Origin: Campylobacterales bacterium
Lineage (GTDB): Bacteria; Campylobacterota; Campylobacteria; Campylobacterales; Sulfurospirillaceae
DNA length: 64,000 nt
Assembly (NCBI GenBank): GCA_024280575.1
Contig: JAJRPV010000044.1
Coordinates: forward strand, 38,798 to 102,797
Reading direction: 5' to 3'
Part shown: piece after piece, positions 2 through 41,141 of the stretch
Layout of the letters: every line of letters begins with the position of its first letter
Numbering within the stretch: the first letter of the stretch is position 1
Notes under the pieces: model-generated
Seen by the model: only the letters and a program-made list of their open reading frames with translations
Databases searched by the model: none
Told to the model about the DNA's origin: nothing
Program-made: the position numbers and the translations under genes

Positions 2-1069
2 AAACAAACTGTTAAACTGATAAAAAACTCAGAAACCGGCATATCTTCAAAAAGGATAGATGCAAACGGTGAAAAAGTAAAAATTCCATATTATTTACTT
101 GAAAATGAGGTAAAACAAAATCAAAAAGATATTTACGCTGTTTTGAAAAATTTGCTTAAAAAAATTGTAGCAAATATGGATAAAAACAAACGAAAATCAA
201 CCGCACTTTTGATTGGCACTTCACTTATAGATTGGTATCTTGTAGATGCCATAAACAGTTGTGCTTATGAATACAAAAAAACTCCATATCTTTCACAAAA
301 AAGAAGTATTGACTCTTATGCGAAACAACTCTCATCTGAGTTTGGATTAAGTGACTTTACAATGAGTATAAATACGGCCTGTACCTCCAGCGCAAATGCT
401 CTGCTTGAGGCAAAAAATCTTATAAATGCAGGTGTAACAGATTATGCTGTTGTTTTAGGATTGGAGATATTTTCACCCGTTATGAGCAGTGGTTTTTACT
501 CTATGGACCTCATCTCTGAGACTATGCCAAAACCTTTTGATGTAGATAGGGACGGACTTGTTTTAGGGGAAGCAGCGGCCGGGATTTTATTGGGAAAAGA
601 AAAAAGCAGTTGGACTTTGGAAGGCGGTTTTAGTAATTGCAATTCTCAAACCATAACTTCTGTCAGCTCAAGTGGTGACGAGTGTGTGGAGGTTATGCGA
701 AAAGCTTTAGAAGACTGTTCTTTACATGTAGAGGATATTACAGCCCTGAAAGCGCATGCCACAGGGTCAAACAGTAATGACGAGGCAGAGCTCAATGCTA
801 TAAGCAAAGTTTTTGATTCTTCTTTGATTTTCACAGCGCTTAAGCCCTATATTGGGCATACGATAGGTGCTTCAGGAGTGATTGAAATATCTATAATGAT
901 GAATGCAGTGGATGAGGGTTTTATACCAAAAACTCTTTTTTGTGAAGAGTCGATTATAGAAGATTTTGCGCCGATAAATGAGCACAAAGAGTGCAAAAGC
1001 GGTACATTTATGTGTAATTATTTTGGTTTTGGTGGAAACAATACATCATTGGTTATAAAAAAAACATGA
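2..1069 (+). CDS. beta-ketoacyl synthase (KS), 5'-truncated by the window edge; aryl-polyene-like cluster
   Basis: Frame is open from base 2. KS motifs: NTACTSSANA (Cys nucleophile), KAHATGSNSNDEAE, KPYIGHTIGASG, C-terminal FGFGGNNTSLV. Confidence 0.88.
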   Translation, partial: KQTVKLIKNSETGISSKRIDANGEKVKIPYYLLENEVKQNQKDIYAVLKNLLKKIVANMDKNKRKSTALLIGTSLIDWYLVDAINSCAYEYKKTPYLSQKRSIDSYAKQLSSEFGLSDFTMSINTACTSSANALLEAKNLINAGVTDYAVVLGLEIFSPVMSSGFYSMDLISETMPKPFDVDRDGLVLGEAAAGILLGKEKSSWTLEGGFSNCNSQTITSVSSSGDECVEVMRKALEDCSLHVEDITALKAHATGSNSNDEAELNAISKVFDSSLIFTALKPYIGHTIGASGVIEISIMMNAVDEGFIPKTLFCEESIIEDFAPINEHKECKSGTFMCNYFGFGGNNTSLVIKKT

Positions 1070-1842
1070 AATTATATATTCTAAATTTCAGCAGTTACAT
1101 TGGAAATAATGAGGCAGTAGAGCTAAAAAAAATTCTCAAGCAAAAATATGGATTAGATACCAGAAGACAAGACAGTTTTATACACTTGGCGCTATATGGC
1201 GGAATGCTGCTAAAAGACAAAATTGACATAGATAAAGATGATGAACTGTATGTGACCAGCGGTGTGGGCAATACAGATATAGTCCAAAAAACAAACACCT
1301 ACATGTATGAAGAAAATCAGCCTTTAAAGCTTTTTGATTTTATCAATTTACTTGGCAATACCACCAGTTATTATATCGCAAAAGCACTTGGAATGAAGGG
1401 CAAAAATATATTTCAAATTTCAGATAATTTTACATATATCAACAGTCTTATCTCGATTTACGCCTCACTTATGAATTCAGGAAAAAATGCTATAATATGC
1501 AATATAGATTTATCAAGCAAGCCGGATGAAATCACAAAAAGAGTTTTGGGAGTCAGTGAAAATCAAGAGATTAAAAGCAGTGTAAATTACCAAAAACTCT
1601 CTCTTGATCCCAAGGGTGCAATCGCAATGATAGAGTTTGATATAAATTGCAACAACAAAAGTAAAATCAAGGATATTTTGCCAAAAACCAAAATCCTAAC
1701 AAGGAAAAACTCTCATGAAGCTTTTTTTGAAACGATTTTGAGCTACAAGGTAAATGAAGCCATAAAAAACAAAGAAGATAAAATTTTTATAGAATCTTTT
1801 AAAGACAGATATAAAATATTAAAATTAAAGATATTAAAATGA
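1066..1842 (+). CDS. KS-like protein without catalytic residues (chain-length-factor-like or degenerate)
   Basis: ATGA overlap with the upstream KS; weak KS-fold-like pattern, no ACTSS Cys (ISDNFTYINS at that place), no HATG or GHT motif. Confidence 0.5.
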   Translation: MKLYILNFSSYIGNNEAVELKKILKQKYGLDTRRQDSFIHLALYGGMLLKDKIDIDKDDELYVTSGVGNTDIVQKTNTYMYEENQPLKLFDFINLLGNTTSYYIAKALGMKGKNIFQISDNFTYINSLISIYASLMNSGKNAIICNIDLSSKPDEITKRVLGVSENQEIKSSVNYQKLSLDPKGAIAMIEFDINCNNKSKIKDILPKTKILTRKNSHEAFFETILSYKVNEAIKNKEDKIFIESFKDRYKILKLKILK

Positions 1843-2050
1843 CATTACAAAATATAAAGCTTGTTGCAACAGTTGCAAGAAATTTAAGAAAATTTTTGCC
1901 CGACTTAAAGCGGGATAGCTACAAGAAATTTAAGAAAATTTTTGCCCGACTTAAAAGGAACAGCTGCACAAACAATACAGAAGTTTCACTTCGTGCTTCA
2001 GTCGCGAGGAATTTTTGCGGAATTTACTTCCTAAAAAAGGGGACAGTTAA
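1839..2050 (+). repeat. Locus A of the hairpin repeat family (one full copy at about 1975-2050 plus partial and tandem units upstream)
   Basis: TTGCAAC-A-GTTGCAA hairpin (1864-1878); imperfect tandem unit RCAAGAAATTTAAGAAAATTTTTGCCCGACTTAAA (about 1875-1910 and 1921-1956); GAAGTTTCACTTC hairpin (1980-1992), core GTGCTTCAGTCGCGAGGAATTT (from 1993), AAAAAAGGGGACA, then the ATG at 2051. The 71-aa ORF here (1839-2054) is repeat-derived. Confidence 0.8.
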
Positions 2051-3145
2051 ATGAAATCATACATAAATAATTATGAACTGTTATGTGATGCAGGCGATAC
2101 AAAAAGTTTGATGGAAGCAATATATGCCAAAAAATCTGCCATAACAGTCAGTGAAGATTATATCAAAGACCAAAAAGCAGGTTTAGGTATTATGCAGTAT
2201 GACAATATTTATGATTCATTAAAAGATGTGACCGGTAAGGTTTTGAAACAATCAAATCTTGAAAATTTTCACGATACACTGTTGATTCTTGGCTCTTCCG
2301 TAGGAGGGATGCAAGAGTGTGAAGAGATATTTTATGCCGAAAAAAGCTATAAGAACTTAGATCCAAATCGTTACTCTATGAATGCATTGACTGATTACAT
2401 GGAAAAAGAGTTTGGTTTTTACGACTCACGCGCAATATCTACCGCCTGTACTTCCAGCGCAAATGCATTTCTTTTGGCCAAAAGACTGATTGAAGTTGAT
2501 GCTTATGAAAATATACTCGTGGTTGGAGCTGATGGTTTGTGTAAATCAACCGTTATGGGTTTTTATGCACTAGGCGTGCTTTCAGACAGAGCTTGCACCC
2601 CTTTTGATAAAAATAGAAATGGTATGAATGTATCTGAAGCGGTCAGTGTAATTTTAGTCCAAAACAGTAAAAATAATCAATCCATAGAGATTAAGGGAGT
2701 GGGGGCAAGCAGCGATGCATACCATATGACCAACACTGATCCTGAGGCGGGTGGTGCTATAAGTTCTATGGAAAATGCCATAAATGATGCCAGACTTGAA
2801 CTAGATAAAATCGACTATATAAATGCACACGGAACAGCGACTATCGCAAATGACAGAGTGGAGTCTTTGGCAATAGAAAAACTTTTTGGAAAAAGCGTAT
2901 GTGTGAGTTCAACCAAAGCAATAACAGGCCATACCTTAGGAGCTGCCGGAGCAGTAGAGGCTATCATTTCTTGCGAAGTGATTAAGCATTCTTTGATTCC
3001 TCCTCAAACGGGCTTGAAAGAGTTGGAAAATCAAAATATAAAAGTACCCACTCAAAGTATCGAAATGAAAATAAAAAATGTATTAAGCAATTCTTTTGCC
3101 TTTGGCGGAAACAATACCTCTATACTGCTAGGAGTCTGCAAGTGA
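2051..3145 (+). CDS. beta-ketoacyl synthase (FabF-like)
   Basis: STACTSSANAF, NAHGTATIANDRVE, ITGHTLGAAGAVEA, FAFGGNNTSILL. Confidence 0.92.
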   Translation: MKSYINNYELLCDAGDTKSLMEAIYAKKSAITVSEDYIKDQKAGLGIMQYDNIYDSLKDVTGKVLKQSNLENFHDTLLILGSSVGGMQECEEIFYAEKSYKNLDPNRYSMNALTDYMEKEFGFYDSRAISTACTSSANAFLLAKRLIEVDAYENILVVGADGLCKSTVMGFYALGVLSDRACTPFDKNRNGMNVSEAVSVILVQNSKNNQSIEIKGVGASSDAYHMTNTDPEAGGAISSMENAINDARLELDKIDYINAHGTATIANDRVESLAIEKLFGKSVCVSSTKAITGHTLGAAGAVEAIISCEVIKHSLIPPQTGLKELENQNIKVPTQSIEMKIKNVLSNSFAFGGNNTSILLGVCK

Positions 3146-3789
3146 GAAAAGTTGCACTTAAAATTTCAAATGCTGCTAAGATTTTTACAGAAACCAAGAT
3201 AGAAAATTTGGAGGAAAAGAGACTCGTTCCAAATATGATGATGAGAAGACGCCTCACAAGAAATGCAAAAGTTATGCTCTACCTAAGCGATAAATGCAGC
3301 TTCAAAAGTGGAAAGATAGTCTATGGCAGTTGTTTCAGTGAACTAGAAGAGACAGCGAAAATCGCAAATGCCGTGCTTGAGGGAGGATTGCTTTCTCCTA
3401 CATCTTTTCAAAATAGTGTTTACAATACCGCTCCCTCTTATTTTTCATTGATAAATAGAGACAAAGATGAGATAATCACTATCTCCTCAGGTATGAAGAC
3501 TTCTAGAGAAACGATAAAAACTGCGGCTCTTCAAGCTTTGGTTTCAGGCGAAAAAGTTTTGTGTGTATGCGTCGAATGTATAAATATAAAAAATATAGAA
3601 GAGATAAACAAATGTGCAAAGTATTTGGAGGCAGGGGCAGCTTTTGTTTTGGAAACAACAGAAGATTTTAGTGGTGCCAAAGAGATAGAAGATAAAAGAG
3701 AAAAGGGCATGATGGACTCTTTGAAAGAGATTATGAGTGTTGTAGATATGTTTGAACAAGCAGACGATAAAATATTGGTGGAGCTTTAA
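3142..3789 (+). CDS. beta-ketoacyl synthase N-terminal-like / chain length factor (Ketoacyl-synt_2-like)
   Basis: About 215 aa with MMMRRRLTRNAKVMLYLSD and SPTSFQNSVYNTAPSYFSL, typical of the ApeC-type CLF family; ATGA overlap with the KS. Confidence 0.75.
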   Translation: MRKVALKISNAAKIFTETKIENLEEKRLVPNMMMRRRLTRNAKVMLYLSDKCSFKSGKIVYGSCFSELEETAKIANAVLEGGLLSPTSFQNSVYNTAPSYFSLINRDKDEIITISSGMKTSRETIKTAALQALVSGEKVLCVCVECINIKNIEEINKCAKYLEAGAAFVLETTEDFSGAKEIEDKREKGMMDSLKEIMSVVDMFEQADDKILVEL

Positions 3790-3791
3790 AA

Positions 3792-5306
3792 ATGACGATA
3801 GATGATGGTTTTATAGAATATAGAAACTTTACATGTAATGATGGAGTTAGGCTGAGTGATGACAAGAGATTTATAGATTTTATAGATGCAGGGCATGATT
3901 TTTTGTTGCAACAGATAAATTCAGGAAGACCGATATACGGCATAACAACAGGATACGGAGAATCCGGCGCAAATCCCACAGCCATAGAAGACGCGCAGGA
4001 ACTTCAAAAAAATCTATATAGATTTTGCGGTGTTGGAGTCGGTGAATATCTAAGCGCAGAAGTTTCAAAAATTATGCTCACGGTGAGACTTGCAAGTCTT
4101 AGTAAAGGTAAAAGTGGCGTGAGTTATGACTTGCTGAAAAGATTTGAACTTTTGCTGGAAAATGAAATTTATCCGCTTATCCCATCCCAAGGATCAGTCG
4201 GAGCAAGCGGTGATTTAGCACCTCTTTCATATATAGCTGCAGTGATTGCCGGAGAGAGAGAAGTTATATTTAAAGGTGAGAATAGAAAAACTATAGAAGT
4301 TTATAATGAATTGGGAATTACTCCTTATGTTTTTAAACCCAAAGAAGCACTTGGAGTGATAAACGGAACTGCTACTATGAGCGCCATCGCTATAAATGCT
4401 ATCAAAGAGTTTGAAATTTTGCTTAAAAGTACAGAGAGCTTTGTAGCGGCTATTTATGAAGTTCTTATCTGTGATACAACCGCACTAGAGCCTTTTGTAC
4501 ATGAGAGCAAGCCTTTTGACGGGCAGATACAAGTCGCTAAAAATATCTTACAAAAGTGTGAAGGTTCCAAACTGACCCAAAAAGCTTTCAGCAGATATGA
4601 AAATTTTCATTTGGAGAGAGAGCAAAATATTCAAGATAGATACTCTATAAGATGCGCACCTCAGGTCTTAGGGGTAGTTAGGGATAATCTCGAAATTGCA
4701 AAAAAATGGATAGAAACAGAAGTCAACGGAGTAAATGATAATCCATTGATAGACCATATCGGCAAGAGGATATATACTTCCGGCAATTTCTATGGCGGAT
4801 ACATCGCTCATGCTATGGATACGATGAGAATTTGTGTGGGAAATATGGCCGATTTAGTAGATAAAGAGTTTGCTTTATTGATAGACCATAAGTTTAATAA
4901 AGGTTTAGGGGAAAATTTAAAAATAAATAAAAAGCCGACTCATCACGCCTTTAAATTGGCTCAAATCACTCTAAGTTCTTTAAGTGCTGATATTTTGATG
5001 AATACAAATGCAGCCTCTTTATACTCAAGATCCACTGAGTCTTTAAATCAAGACAAAGTCAGTATGGGAACTACTTCGGCTAGAAATTTTGCCAAACAAC
5101 TGCCAGATTTGGCAAATATGCTTAGTATCGCATTTATGGGAATCGCACAGGCCGTGGATATAAGAGGGGTAGATAAATGCTCTGCCAAACTTCAAAATCT
5201 TCATAGCGAGATAAGAAAAGATGTGGCAAAACTTGTTGAAGACAGAAGATTGGATTTGGATATAAGAAGCATAAACAAGATGTTGATAGATGGAAAATTT
5301 ATATGA
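3792..5306 (+). CDS. aromatic amino acid ammonia-lyase (HAL/PAL/TAL family)
   Basis: MIO triad in GSVGASGDLAPLSY; YGITTGYG; GVNDNPLID; SMGTTSARN. Confidence 0.92.
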   Translation: MTIDDGFIEYRNFTCNDGVRLSDDKRFIDFIDAGHDFLLQQINSGRPIYGITTGYGESGANPTAIEDAQELQKNLYRFCGVGVGEYLSAEVSKIMLTVRLASLSKGKSGVSYDLLKRFELLLENEIYPLIPSQGSVGASGDLAPLSYIAAVIAGEREVIFKGENRKTIEVYNELGITPYVFKPKEALGVINGTATMSAIAINAIKEFEILLKSTESFVAAIYEVLICDTTALEPFVHESKPFDGQIQVAKNILQKCEGSKLTQKAFSRYENFHLEREQNIQDRYSIRCAPQVLGVVRDNLEIAKKWIETEVNGVNDNPLIDHIGKRIYTSGNFYGGYIAHAMDTMRICVGNMADLVDKEFALLIDHKFNKGLGENLKINKKPTHHAFKLAQITLSSLSADILMNTNAASLYSRSTESLNQDKVSMGTTSARNFAKQLPDLANMLSIAFMGIAQAVDIRGVDKCSAKLQNLHSEIRKDVAKLVEDRRLDLDIRSINKMLIDGKFI

Positions 5307-5994
5307 AAAAAGTATTAATAACAGGCTCAACCGGTGCTATAGGCGAAGCATGTGCAAAATATTTTCATGATAACGGATATTTTGTTTATCTCCATTACAG
5401 AAATAATAAGCAAAAAGCAAAAGCGTTAAATACGCAGTTACAAAATTCTGAAACTGTCTGTTTTGATATTTTAGACAAAAAAAATGTAATTGAAAAATTA
5501 GAAAATCTGGAACTTGATGTTTTGGTAAACAATGCCGGCATCACAAAAGACAAGCTCTTTTTCTGGATGGAAGACGATGACTGGAATGATGTTATCAACA
5601 CATCAATAAACGGAACATATAATGTAACAAAAGCAGTAATTAAAAATATGATTAGCCGTAAAAACTGTTCAATTGTAAATATAGCTTCTGTTTCAGGTTT
5701 GATTGGAAATATGGGGCAGACAAATTATTCTGCTGCAAAAGGAGCTGTGATAGCTTTTACAAAGGCACTTTCCATAGAAATGGGTCGATATAAAATTCGA
5801 GTAAATGCGATAGCTCCGGGATTGATAGAATCAGAGATGACAAAAAACCTGGATGTGAAAACAATAAAAAATGATATTTCGCTCAAGAGAATCGGCAAAC
5901 CCGAAGAGGTGGCGGAGTGCGTCTTTTTTTGGCTGACATTGCAACTTATGTTACCGGTGAGATATTGAGCGTAAGTGGTGGAATGGTGAGATAA
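5303..5994 (+). CDS. 3-oxoacyl-ACP reductase (SDR, FabG-like), apparent frameshift near 5923-5930
   Basis: TGSTGAIGEACAKYF, NNAGITKD, YSAAKGA. The listed ORF ends out of frame (FFWLTLQLMLPVRY), while the other frame gives LADIATYVTGEILSVSGGMVR*, the expected SDR C-terminus. Confidence 0.88.
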
Positions 5995-24194: not shown

Positions 24195-24810
24195 AGAACT
24201 AGACTCCACTCATAAATATATAATAAATGAGATAAAAATAGGAAATATTAAAGAACCAACTCTAATCGCCACAGATTATCAAAGTGCAGGAGTTGGAAGT
24301 CGTGGAAATTCCTGGGAAGGAAAATATGGTAACCTTTTTTGCTCATTTTGTGTAAAAAAGAAACACTTGCCAAAAGATTTGCGATTAGCTTCAATTTCCA
24401 TATATTTTTCTTATCTTTTGAAAGAAGTATTATCCTCGTATGGCTCGAAAATATGGATAAAGTGGCCGAATGATTTTTATATAAAAGACAAGAAAATCGG
24501 AGGGGTAATTACTACAAAGATAGGTGATAATATCATAGGTTCAATTGGACTAAATATCGTAGAATCGCCCCTGGAATTTGGTATTTTGGACTTACATGTA
24601 GAGCCCAAAAAAATTGTAAGTGACTTTTTGGGGATACTAGAAAAAAAAATTTCATGGAAGCAGGTTTTTAGCAAGTATAAGATAGAATTTCAAAACAGCA
24701 GAGATTTTACTTTTCACTTGGGTAGTGAAATAAAATCTTTAAAAAATGCTAAACTATGTGAAGATGGTTCGATAGAGTTAGATAAAAGAAGGGTGTACAG
24801 TCTAAGATGA
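24175..24810 (+). CDS. birA: biotin--protein ligase
   Basis: ELDSTHKYI, ATDYQSAGVGSRGNSWEG, IWIKWPNDFYIKDKKIGGVI; TTG start. Confidence 0.9.
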   Translation: MVVNWFKELDSTHKYIINEIKIGNIKEPTLIATDYQSAGVGSRGNSWEGKYGNLFCSFCVKKKHLPKDLRLASISIYFSYLLKEVLSSYGSKIWIKWPNDFYIKDKKIGGVITTKIGDNIIGSIGLNIVESPLEFGILDLHVEPKKIVSDFLGILEKKISWKQVFSKYKIEFQNSRDFTFHLGSEIKSLKNAKLCEDGSIELDKRRVYSLR

Positions 24811-24840
24811 TAAACTATAAAGCGATAACTCACGCAAAAG

Positions 24841-25044
24841 CAACAAGGAATTTTGCTTGGGCTCTGCCCAAACATAAAATGAATTTACAGAAACATCAGT
24901 TTTGTGCTTTAGTCGAGAGGAATTTTTTAGGAATTTACTTCCTGAAAAAGGGGACAGTTAAATGAAATATTACAGAGCGCCAGCTCGTGCTTTAGTCGCG
25001 AGGAATTTTTTAGGAATTTACTTCCTGAAAAAGGGGACAGTTAA
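24841..25044 (+). repeat. Locus B of the hairpin repeat family (two full tandem copies, 83-bp period, plus one partial copy)
   Basis: Partial: AAGGAATTTTGC-TTGGGC-tct-GCCCAA. Copies: AAAC-atca-GTTT and GAGC-gcca-GCTC hairpins, each followed by GTGCTTTAGTCGmGAGGAATTTTTT, AGGAA-tttac-TTCCT and GAAAAAGGGGACAGTTAAATG. Confidence 0.9.
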
Positions 25045-25830
25045 ATGAGTGAAATAATAGCTATAGCAAATCAAAAAGGTGGGGTTGGAAAAACTACGAC
25101 CGCAGTTAACCTTGCTGCTTCTTTAGCAGTTGCTGAGAAAAAAGTACTTTTGATAGATATTGACCCTCAGTCAAATGCTACTACGGGACTAGGTTTTCAT
25201 AGAAGTGATTATGAATACAATATATATCATGTCTTAATCGGAAGAAAAAAACTTTCTCAAGTTATACTTGAAACTACACTGCCAACACTTCATTTGGCTC
25301 CTTCTAATATTGGTTTAGTTGGGGTTGAAAAAGAGTTTTATGATGCAAAAACAAAAGGTAGGGAATTAATTTTAAAAAACAAAATCAAAGAGATTAAAGA
25401 TCAATATGATTATATTATCATAGATTCTCCACCTGCACTAGGAAGCATAACGATAAATGCATTAAGTGCTGCAAATTCGGTTATAATCCCTATACAGTGT
25501 GAATTTTTTGCATTAGAGGGTCTTGCGCAACTGTTAAATACTGTAAAATTAATCAAAAAAACTATAAATCCAAAACTTGAGATAAAAGGCTTTTTACCAA
25601 CAATGTATAGCACTCAAAATAATCTTTCAAAACAAGTTTTCGCAGATCTGAAGCAGCATTTTAAAGGAAAACTATTTAGAGATAAAAAATCTTCATCATA
25701 TGTTGTAATTCCAAGAAATATAAAATTGGCAGAATCCCCTAGTTTTGGAAAACCTATAATCTTATATGATATAAAGTCAGCAGGTTCTCTAGCATATCAA
25801 AATTTAGCAAACTCTATATTGGCCAGCTAA
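25045..25830 (+). CDS. parA: chromosome partitioning ATPase ParA/Soj
   Basis: IANQKGGVGKTTTAVNLAASLA; IDIDPQSNATTGLG. Confidence 0.96.
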   Translation: MSEIIAIANQKGGVGKTTTAVNLAASLAVAEKKVLLIDIDPQSNATTGLGFHRSDYEYNIYHVLIGRKKLSQVILETTLPTLHLAPSNIGLVGVEKEFYDAKTKGRELILKNKIKEIKDQYDYIIIDSPPALGSITINALSAANSVIIPIQCEFFALEGLAQLLNTVKLIKKTINPKLEIKGFLPTMYSTQNNLSKQVFADLKQHFKGKLFRDKKSSSYVVIPRNIKLAESPSFGKPIILYDIKSAGSLAYQNLANSILAS

Positions 25831-40275: not shown

Positions 40276-40436
40276 ATGAAATTACAGAAGTTTACTTCGT
40301 GCTTTAGTCGCGAGGAATTTGATGGGAGCTTTGCTCTTATCAAAGGGGACAATAGAGTAAAATTACAGAAGTTTACTTCGTGCTTTAGTCGCGTGGAATT
40401 TGATGGGAGCTTTGCTCTTATCAAAGGGGACAATTT
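40276..40436 (+). repeat. Locus C of the hairpin repeat family (two tandem copies, 81-bp period)
   Basis: AAATTACA-GAAGT-tt-ACTTC-GTGCTTTAGTCGCGnGGAATTTGATGG-GAGC-ttt-GCTC-TTATCAAAGGGGACAAT twice; second copy abuts the mtnN ATG. Confidence 0.92.
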
Positions 40437-41141
40437 ATGAAATTAGCCATTATGGGGGCAATGCCCGAAGAGATAGAACCACTTTTGAAATATTATAAAA
40501 ATTATGAAACTATAGAATATGCAAAAAACAAATATTATCTGGTTTCATATAGAGACAATGAGATTGTTATAGCTTATAGCAAGATAGGTAAAGTAAATGC
40601 CACAATAACTGCAGCAACTATGATAGAAAAGTTTGCCTGTGAAAAACTCTTATTTAGTGGAGTAGCGGGAGCAATCGGTAATGATTTGAAAATAGGTGAT
40701 TTGGTGGTTGCAACTAAATTAGCCCAACATGATTTGGATATTTCTGCTTTTGGTCATCCTTATGGGTATGTACCGGAAGGGTCAGTATATGAAGAAGCGG
40801 ATAAAAATTTGATAAGTATAGCAAAATTTGTGGCTAGTAAAAAAAATATTCCATTAAAAGAAACTATCGTAGCAACAGGAGATCAGTTTATATGTGATGT
40901 TGCAAAAAAAGAGTGGATAGAGAAGACTTTTCATGCTGGTGCTCTAGAGATGGAAGGGGCAGCAGTTGCCCTTACATGTAGCGCTTTAAATGTTCCTTTT
41001 TTTATACTCCGCTCAATAAGTGATGCTGCTGATATGGATGCAAGTTTTAATTTTGATGAGTTTTTAGCATCTTCTGCAAAAATAAGTGCAGATTTTATAA
41101 TCTCAATGATAGATAAAGTGATAGATGACAAACTTAAGTAA
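40437..41141 (+). CDS. mtnN: MTA/SAH nucleosidase
   Basis: MKLAIMGAMPEEIEPLL, FSGVAGAIGNDLKIGD, LEMEGAAVALTC. Confidence 0.95.
   Translation: MKLAIMGAMPEEIEPLLKYYKNYETIEYAKNKYYLVSYRDNEIVIAYSKIGKVNATITAATMIEKFACEKLLFSGVAGAIGNDLKIGDLVVATKLAQHDLDISAFGHPYGYVPEGSVYEEADKNLISIAKFVASKKNIPLKETIVATGDQFICDVAKKEWIEKTFHAGALEMEGAAVALTCSALNVPFFILRSISDAADMDASFNFDEFLASSAKISADFIISMIDKVIDDKLK

Follow-up and report, generated by a model that had tools for sequence, protein, structure and literature searches.

A dispersed two-hairpin repeat at gene starts of a Campylobacterales genome and its putative role in translational hand-over

In a Sulfurospirillum-like Campylobacterales bacterium (GenBank assembly GCA_024280575.1), the start codon of parA is preceded by stacked copies of a hairpin-rich repeat, each of which ends in an ATG. 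This arrangement raises the question of what the repeat is, why two neighbouring copies differ in one stem and agree almost everywhere else, and how parA could still be translated behind them. The locus lies in a window of 64,000 nt (contig JAJRPV010000044.1, positions 38,798 to 102,797); coordinates below are those of the window and all features named at this locus are on the forward strand. The preliminary description of the locus, which is partly supported by the present analysis, covered the parA leader and did not contain the dispersed, start-codon-tied family, the absence of the insert from relatives or the small open reading frame (ORF) at the first ATG.

Two full units with an exact 83-bp period (24879-24961 and 24962-25044) lie 5' of parA, and a decayed third unit (AAGGAATTTTGCTTGGGCTCTGCCCAAACATAAA, approximately 24845-24878) precedes them. 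The partial copy and two full copies proposed earlier are thus borne out; the partial copy retains, on inspection of the sequence, a hairpin-2 remnant (GCTTGGGCTCTGCCCAAAC) and has lost its tail. Both full units end in GGGGACAGTTAAATG, with exact matches at 24950-24964 and 25033-25047, and both are recognized by the covariance model of the family (R1 matches at 24886-24963, 85.9 bits, and 24971-25046, 96.7 bits, the latter being the best in the genome). A 22-nt core of the repeat was found three times in the window against none expected from shuffled sequences, which is far above chance. Hairpin 1 has the stem GAAAC/GTTTT in unit 1 (24890-24903) and GAGC/GCTC in unit 2 (24975-24986), whereas hairpin 2 is TTTTTTAGGA/TCCTGAAAAA in both (24923-24949 and 25006-25032); all four helices are supported by covariation. 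From linker to tail the two units are one base apart (GTCGAGAGG versus GTCGCGAGG). Each carries the class A tail described below with a Shine-Dalgarno (SD)-like AAGGGG (24948-24953 and 25031-25036), the second of which is located 8 nt 5' of the parA ATG.

As described previously, ATGs occur at 24962 and 25045 and it is the last one that opens parA (261 aa, 25045-25830), which begins ATGAGT as in most relatives. The first ATG is indeed start-codon-like, but it is not idle as had been implied: it opens an ORF of 28 codons (MKYYRAPARALVARNFLGIYFLKKGTVK, 24962-25048) whose stop, TGA at 25046-25048, overlaps the parA start. The beginning of the leader, formerly placed at 24841, has to be moved to 24807, where the birA stop (TGA, 24808-24810) overlaps, as ATGA (24807-24810), the start of a first leader ORF of 52 aa (MINYKAITHAKATRNFAWALPKHKMNLQKHQFCALVERNFLGIYFLKKGTVK, 24807-24965). 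The stop of this ORF in turn overlaps the next ATG as ATGA. The result is a chain in which birA, ORF 1, ORF 2 and parA are joined by three successive ATGA overlaps.

Comparison with relatives identifies the leader as an insertion. In all eight relatives in which parA was retrieved beside birA, the two genes overlap directly as ATGA and the site is empty (AGTCTAAGATGA(A/G/C)TGAAAT). Here, 238 bp reside inside this overlap with ATGA on both sides, its left edge being the ATGA at 24807-24810, and both genes keep their ends. Similarly, trpA and lepB have no insert at their start in any relative retrieved, and several uninserted relatives each were found for argF, aroC, a hemN-like gene and a nucleosidase gene. 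The left edge of the insertions retains the stop of the upstream gene, or the native SD and ATG.

The repeat is not confined to parA. A covariance model built from 28 units gave 107 matches in this genome, which was analysed as stretches around repeat copies, and a DNA query found 46 places. The unit, of about 80 nt, consists of hairpin 1, a conserved linker (GCTTTAGTCGCGAGGAATTT), hairpin 2, the tail AAAGGGGACA, a spacer of 4-8 nt and the ATG. It precedes dozens of unrelated genes, among them trpA, purE, a hemN-like gene, argF, lepB, rpe and aroC. Within the window, further copies occur at 1976-2052 and 40283-40438. The former lies in a 71-codon ORF (1839-2054, + strand) joined by ATGA overlaps to a gene at 1066-1842 (through its stop) and to a ketosynthase-like gene at 2051 (through its start). 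At the latter, two units precede an MTA/SAH nucleosidase-like gene (40437) and together form a single ORF of 54 codons (40276-40440, + strand) in a different repeat frame, with a stop overlapping the gene ATG. All 10 genomes of the genus contain the repeat (16-107 model matches each). Two other genera of the family have 6-54 model matches, Sulfurospirillum-type genomes (g3) have 0-2, and matches also occur in scattered genomes from other families of the order. An exact-pattern scan of contigs returned at least 79 stretches and, among the matches listed, only Campylobacterota (Sulfurospirillum, Campylobacteraceae, Campylobacterota bacterium). Rfam gave no match at the gathering score and no meaningful match below it, and a literature search for a described Campylobacterota start-codon repeat found nothing relevant. 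The evidence for the family, for its structure and for its position is firm, and this real and widespread family is apparently undescribed so far.

The two helices are well supported by compensatory change. Over all 107 matches of this genome (101 distinct), 96.6% of the cells were paired and the covariation score was 0.729, compared with 0.202 +/- 0.010 for shuffled and at most 0.16 for slid partners, all of these figures for the real helices being upper bounds because the alignment was fitted to the model and its rows are related. Both sides change at 16 of the 17 pairs. Departures from Watson-Crick pairing comprised 92 G-U and 26 A-C; a strand-indifferent DNA palindrome would give the two equally, and the excess of G-U therefore indicates selection on the sense strand. 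The covariation thus suggests a structure that acts as RNA, probably mRNA.

Terminal units were classed by their linker and tail. Class A (GAGGAATT ... AAAGGGGACA or AAAGGAGACA) has an SD-like tail, while class B (GTGAATT ... GATGACA) and class C (AATGAATT ... GAAAACA) are without SD. Of the 50 arrays with an SD-like tail in this genome, 49 lie directly against a start codon, compared with none of the 16 non-SD-tailed arrays (Fisher p = 2e-14), an association that is partly expected from the need for a ribosome-binding site (RBS) alone, because the classes are defined by the tail; as arrays share descent, this p-value and that of the frame comparison below overstate independence. Class B and C copies are located 7-80 nt upstream of genes with their own SD, e.g. 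dnaK, infA, tuf, rplL and rplK. Differential exposure of the SD by predicted folding was rejected as a basis for the distinction, the classes being alike: the SD had a predicted unpaired probability of about 0.6, not better than that of non-SD tails. One unclassified unit, the only one of its kind in the genome, is positioned antisense beside a tRNA gene (contig C4, 232-302) instead of preceding a protein gene.

A second regularity concerns the reading frame. The frame was followed in 51 arrays that have an ATG close to their left edge. With restarts allowed only within 8 nt of a stop, the ORF chain from the nearest left ATG ends no more than 8 nt from the gene start in 40 of them, and the insertion of 1 or 2 nt ahead of the first unit lowers this number to 13 and 9, respectively (p = 1.5e-11), although a repeat of 83 nt that already contains an ORF would be expected to score highly even if individual sites were not under selection. 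Random 1-nt indels reduced the count from 45 of 62 arrays to 20.6 +/- 3.1. An ATG near the left edge is absent in 28 of 90 arrays, and in 11 of the 51 no chain is formed. The spans of single units (83/80, 82/79 and 81 nt) fall into three different residues modulo 3, and the stop meets the start codon differently in each: TGA at +1 for 83/80, TAA, TAG or TGA at -4 for 82/79 and TAA at -3 for 81. The aroC, lepB and nucleosidase arrays form one end-to-end ORF in other repeat frames, with the stop at the gene ATG. This use of different frames at different genes led us to reject a conserved leader peptide, and an in-frame protein extension was likewise rejected, none of the 51 arrays being fused in frame to the downstream gene. 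The geometry by which coupled gene pairs are recognized, namely a stop/start overlap or few-nt spacing with an open upstream frame, is present.

Taken with the paired stems, the position at start codons and the gain at parA, all read from the sequences, this preserved frame suggests that a dispersed and presumably mobile, REP/MITE-like repeat has invaded gene starts and probably keeps genes on by a hand-over through termination and reinitiation. The repeat separates the coding sequence, now displaced, from the native SD and start region. A ribosome would initiate at the old start, or arrive from the upstream gene via the ATGA overlap, and translate the unit, and this translation would melt hairpin 2. 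The ribosome would then terminate at the stop that overlaps or touches the real start and reinitiate with the help of the SD-like tail of the unit. With hairpin 2 melted and reinitiation served by the tail, an insertion would therefore be near silent and stackable. Coupling at ATGA overlaps, partly SD-dependent, is established experimentally elsewhere (PMC6728339). We infer both the translation of the mini-ORFs and the reinitiation at displaced starts in this genome.

The main competitor to the hand-over reading is a neutral or selfish repeat that survives mainly at starts since its tail is a usable RBS, with mini-ORFs as by-products and no coupling. Inspection shows few stops in at least two forward frames of the element, class B and C copies lie harmlessly 7-80 nt upstream of genes, and copies are tolerated in P12 of RNase P RNA and just before 16S rRNA. 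Against this, the frame of the arrays relative to the left ATG is kept (40/51 versus 22/102 when shifted), a matching stop is carried by lengths in all three residues modulo 3, and there are essentially no SD-tailed copies away from starts; we consider a purely neutral repeat unlikely, without dismissing it. Far less credible is a cis-regulatory RNA specific for parA, such as a riboswitch, attenuator or leader peptide. The position before parA, the two stable hairpins and the leader ORF would each agree with such a regulator, but the same element is found before dozens of unrelated genes, it is absent at parA in all eight relatives and without an Rfam match, and the leader peptide is unconserved, with repeat frames that differ between genes. 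A regulator of this type is highly improbable.

The contrast in hairpin 1 between adjacent copies with near-identical flanks, to which the preliminary description drew attention, is genuine and recurs elsewhere. In an automatic, script-based parse of 33 adjacent unit pairs of this genome, both hairpins were the same in 9, only hairpin 2 in 8 (parA included) and only hairpin 1 in 2, while both differed in 14. Plain recent tandem duplication, already doubted in that description, is an incomplete account. Of the two explanations then offered, stem turnover is well founded, being extensive, with the same hairpin-1 positions paired as GC, AU, CG or UA; independent insertion is not required, as recombination or gene conversion in the near-identical block of linker and hairpin 2 would also swap hairpin 1. 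Direct evidence of recombination between units is provided by the hemN array (L029), in which one unit is a chimera with the left arm of hairpin 2 from one neighbour and the right arm from the other. The preliminary description had named read errors as what would undo the contrast. The assembly is fragmented and repeats occur at several contig ends, which would suit a sequencing or assembly artefact; yet each stem is self-complementary, 8 of the 33 adjacent pairs show the pattern, as do other genomes, and unit 2 alone has the best model score in the genome. An artefact is accordingly so improbable that it can practically be set aside, and recombination or separate insertion explains the contrast better than read error. 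Because of the adjacent-pair pattern and the L029 chimera, we favour a combination of mosaic recombination and separate insertions, to which compensatory changes in the stems are added over longer times.

Some copies of the unit lie in or before RNA genes. A unit occurs in the P12 region of RNase P RNA (rnpB) in some g2 and g3 genomes (loci L241, L246 and L251 of genomes G012, G010 and G013, respectively), whereas a short hairpin is present at P12 in this genome and in G020 (g3). P12 was rejected as the ancestral origin of the family: of the genomes in which P12 could be read, most have a short hairpin there and only three the element. In two g3 genomes (L215 and L217), a variant unit (GTGTAATGAATTC ... 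GAAGAAACA) is located upstream of an rRNA-type locus, and that of L215 ends immediately before the 5' end of 16S rRNA (AATGGAGAGTTTGATCC). The tails of the copies in RNase P RNA and at rRNA loci are of the non-SD type. The family is thus an insertion that RNA tolerates and that takes a special form at start codons. Coupling cannot operate for class B and C copies, nor for copies in RNase P RNA or before 16S rRNA.

How the repeat spreads is a separate matter, and the route considered here is compatible with the hand-over reading. This possible though doubtful route is that of a REP/BIME- or PATE-like element moved by a RAYT- or IS200/IS605-type HUH (Y1) transposase, with the hairpins as subterminal structures of a minimal non-autonomous element and TCAT (ATGA on the sense strand) as target. 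HEARO/IsrB and IS200/IS605-type elements have insertion sites associated with ATGA and are much longer than the repeat here. Two Y1_Tnp genes are present in this genome, and Y1_Tnp occurs in 8 of 10 genomes of the genus. The fixed orientation to ATG(A) and the ATGA at both edges of the parA insert would fit cleavage at TCAT, and at L187 (G004:C140, about 885-950) several AAAGGGGACA-type motifs precede a RAYT-like Y1_Tnp gene. Against an HUH transposase, a scan of 21 Y1_Tnp loci for flanking units identified no mobilising enzyme: none had a recognisable unit flanking the gene, and the one match (L184) was the atpE leader. Y1_Tnp was not detected in two genomes that have 45 and 49 model matches, the class A consensus is without GTAG and several displaced starts read ATGG, not ATGA. 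A RAYT as the obvious mover was therefore rejected, the Y1 genes being present but not unit-flanked. Terminal inverted repeats, as in a MITE of a DDE transposon, were not found, the edges TACAG/TTCT and GGGGACA not being mutually inverted. A target-site duplication is at best weakly indicated: the gene-specific likeness of left and right flanks gave p = 0.017 and 0.024, or 0.09 with the first base left out, although at single loci such as L098 it extends to about 20 nt.

Several known systems share features with the repeat. The SAS/ESAS of Cluster K mycobacteriophages are also present in many copies, in one orientation, directly before start codons and with an SD (AGGAG); according to the passages on SAS available to us, about half have inverted repeats just upstream and their function is unproved (PMC3203893). 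These passages give a 13-bp SAS and 17-bp inverted repeats in phage genomes, with little support for RNA pairing of the latter, whereas the stems covary strongly here, and they describe no tandem stacking, mini-ORF chain or cellular spread, all of which are present here (PMC3203893). The 13-bp GGGATAGGAGCCC quoted in them is absent from the repeat, whose tail is AAAGGGGACA or AAAGGAGACA; the likeness is positional only. REP/BIME sequences and their RAYTs resemble the family in being short palindromic repeats in tens to about 100 copies with heterogeneous stems, dimers and clusters (PMC3733652, PMC2817692). They differ in their conserved unpaired tags (GTAG or CGTC, at the foot of the palindrome), neither of which is in the class A consensus, and in being typically extragenic without start-codon or strand restriction, in contrast to the start-codon-bound repeat described here (PMC3733652, PMC2817692). 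GTAG is confined to the linker of class B units. In REP systems the RAYT gene is flanked by repeat copies, unlike here, where no RAYT is flanked by a unit. Rickettsia palindromic elements are likewise dispersed palindromic repeats that keep an open frame in a host gene that works, but they fuse in frame into proteins (reviewed in PMC10969869), whereas in this genome the frame stops at the start codon and none of 51 arrays is fused. Known termination-reinitiation coupling at ATGA has the same stop/start overlap and an SD before the second start and involves pairs of real genes (PMC6728339, PMC10666635), while here the upstream partner is the repeat body.

Repeats entering gene starts are expected to break genes, and here about 50 starts (trpA, aroC, argF and parA among them) are occupied, apparently without loss, possibly owing to the RBS that the repeat supplies and to the hand-over of the ribosome. 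If this is so, a selfish repeat would have an easy means of persisting at essential genes, translation level would have a source of heritable variation, and the arrays, with 1-5 stacked units and many stem sequences, would be a natural leader library for testing termination-reinitiation. A wider reading is plausible but falls short of being probable, namely that of a mobile Campylobacterota repeat family that specifically invades translation starts and stays silent through the stop/start bridge and its own RBS. Such a family would amount to a translation-initiation region that is able to transpose, form stacks, recombine and adjust gene output, with relatives in RNase P RNA and before 16S rRNA. 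For annotation, the ORFs of 28-71 codons before these genes should be read as repeat bodies and the last ATG as the true start.

Some further observations concern neighbouring elements and genes. The ketosynthase, ammonia-lyase-like and reductase genes at 143-5968 of the window resemble an aryl-polyene-type cluster, and a repeat unit interrupts one of the junctions (1839-2051). Elsewhere in this genome (L032, contig C70, around 726-780), a distinct palindromic repeat (AAAAGTGGCGGGTCGGAGGTTTACTTTT) is found in tandem close to a RAYT-like Y1_Tnp gene. In some units (L122, L152, L153, L164, L165 and L026), hairpin 2 is replaced by a second inverted-repeat element (TGCCCATA ... TATGGGCA), which is also found in the P12 region of RNase P RNA of two other genomes (rnpB in L243 and L256). 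The tail of this second element again leads into AGGGGACA ... ATG.
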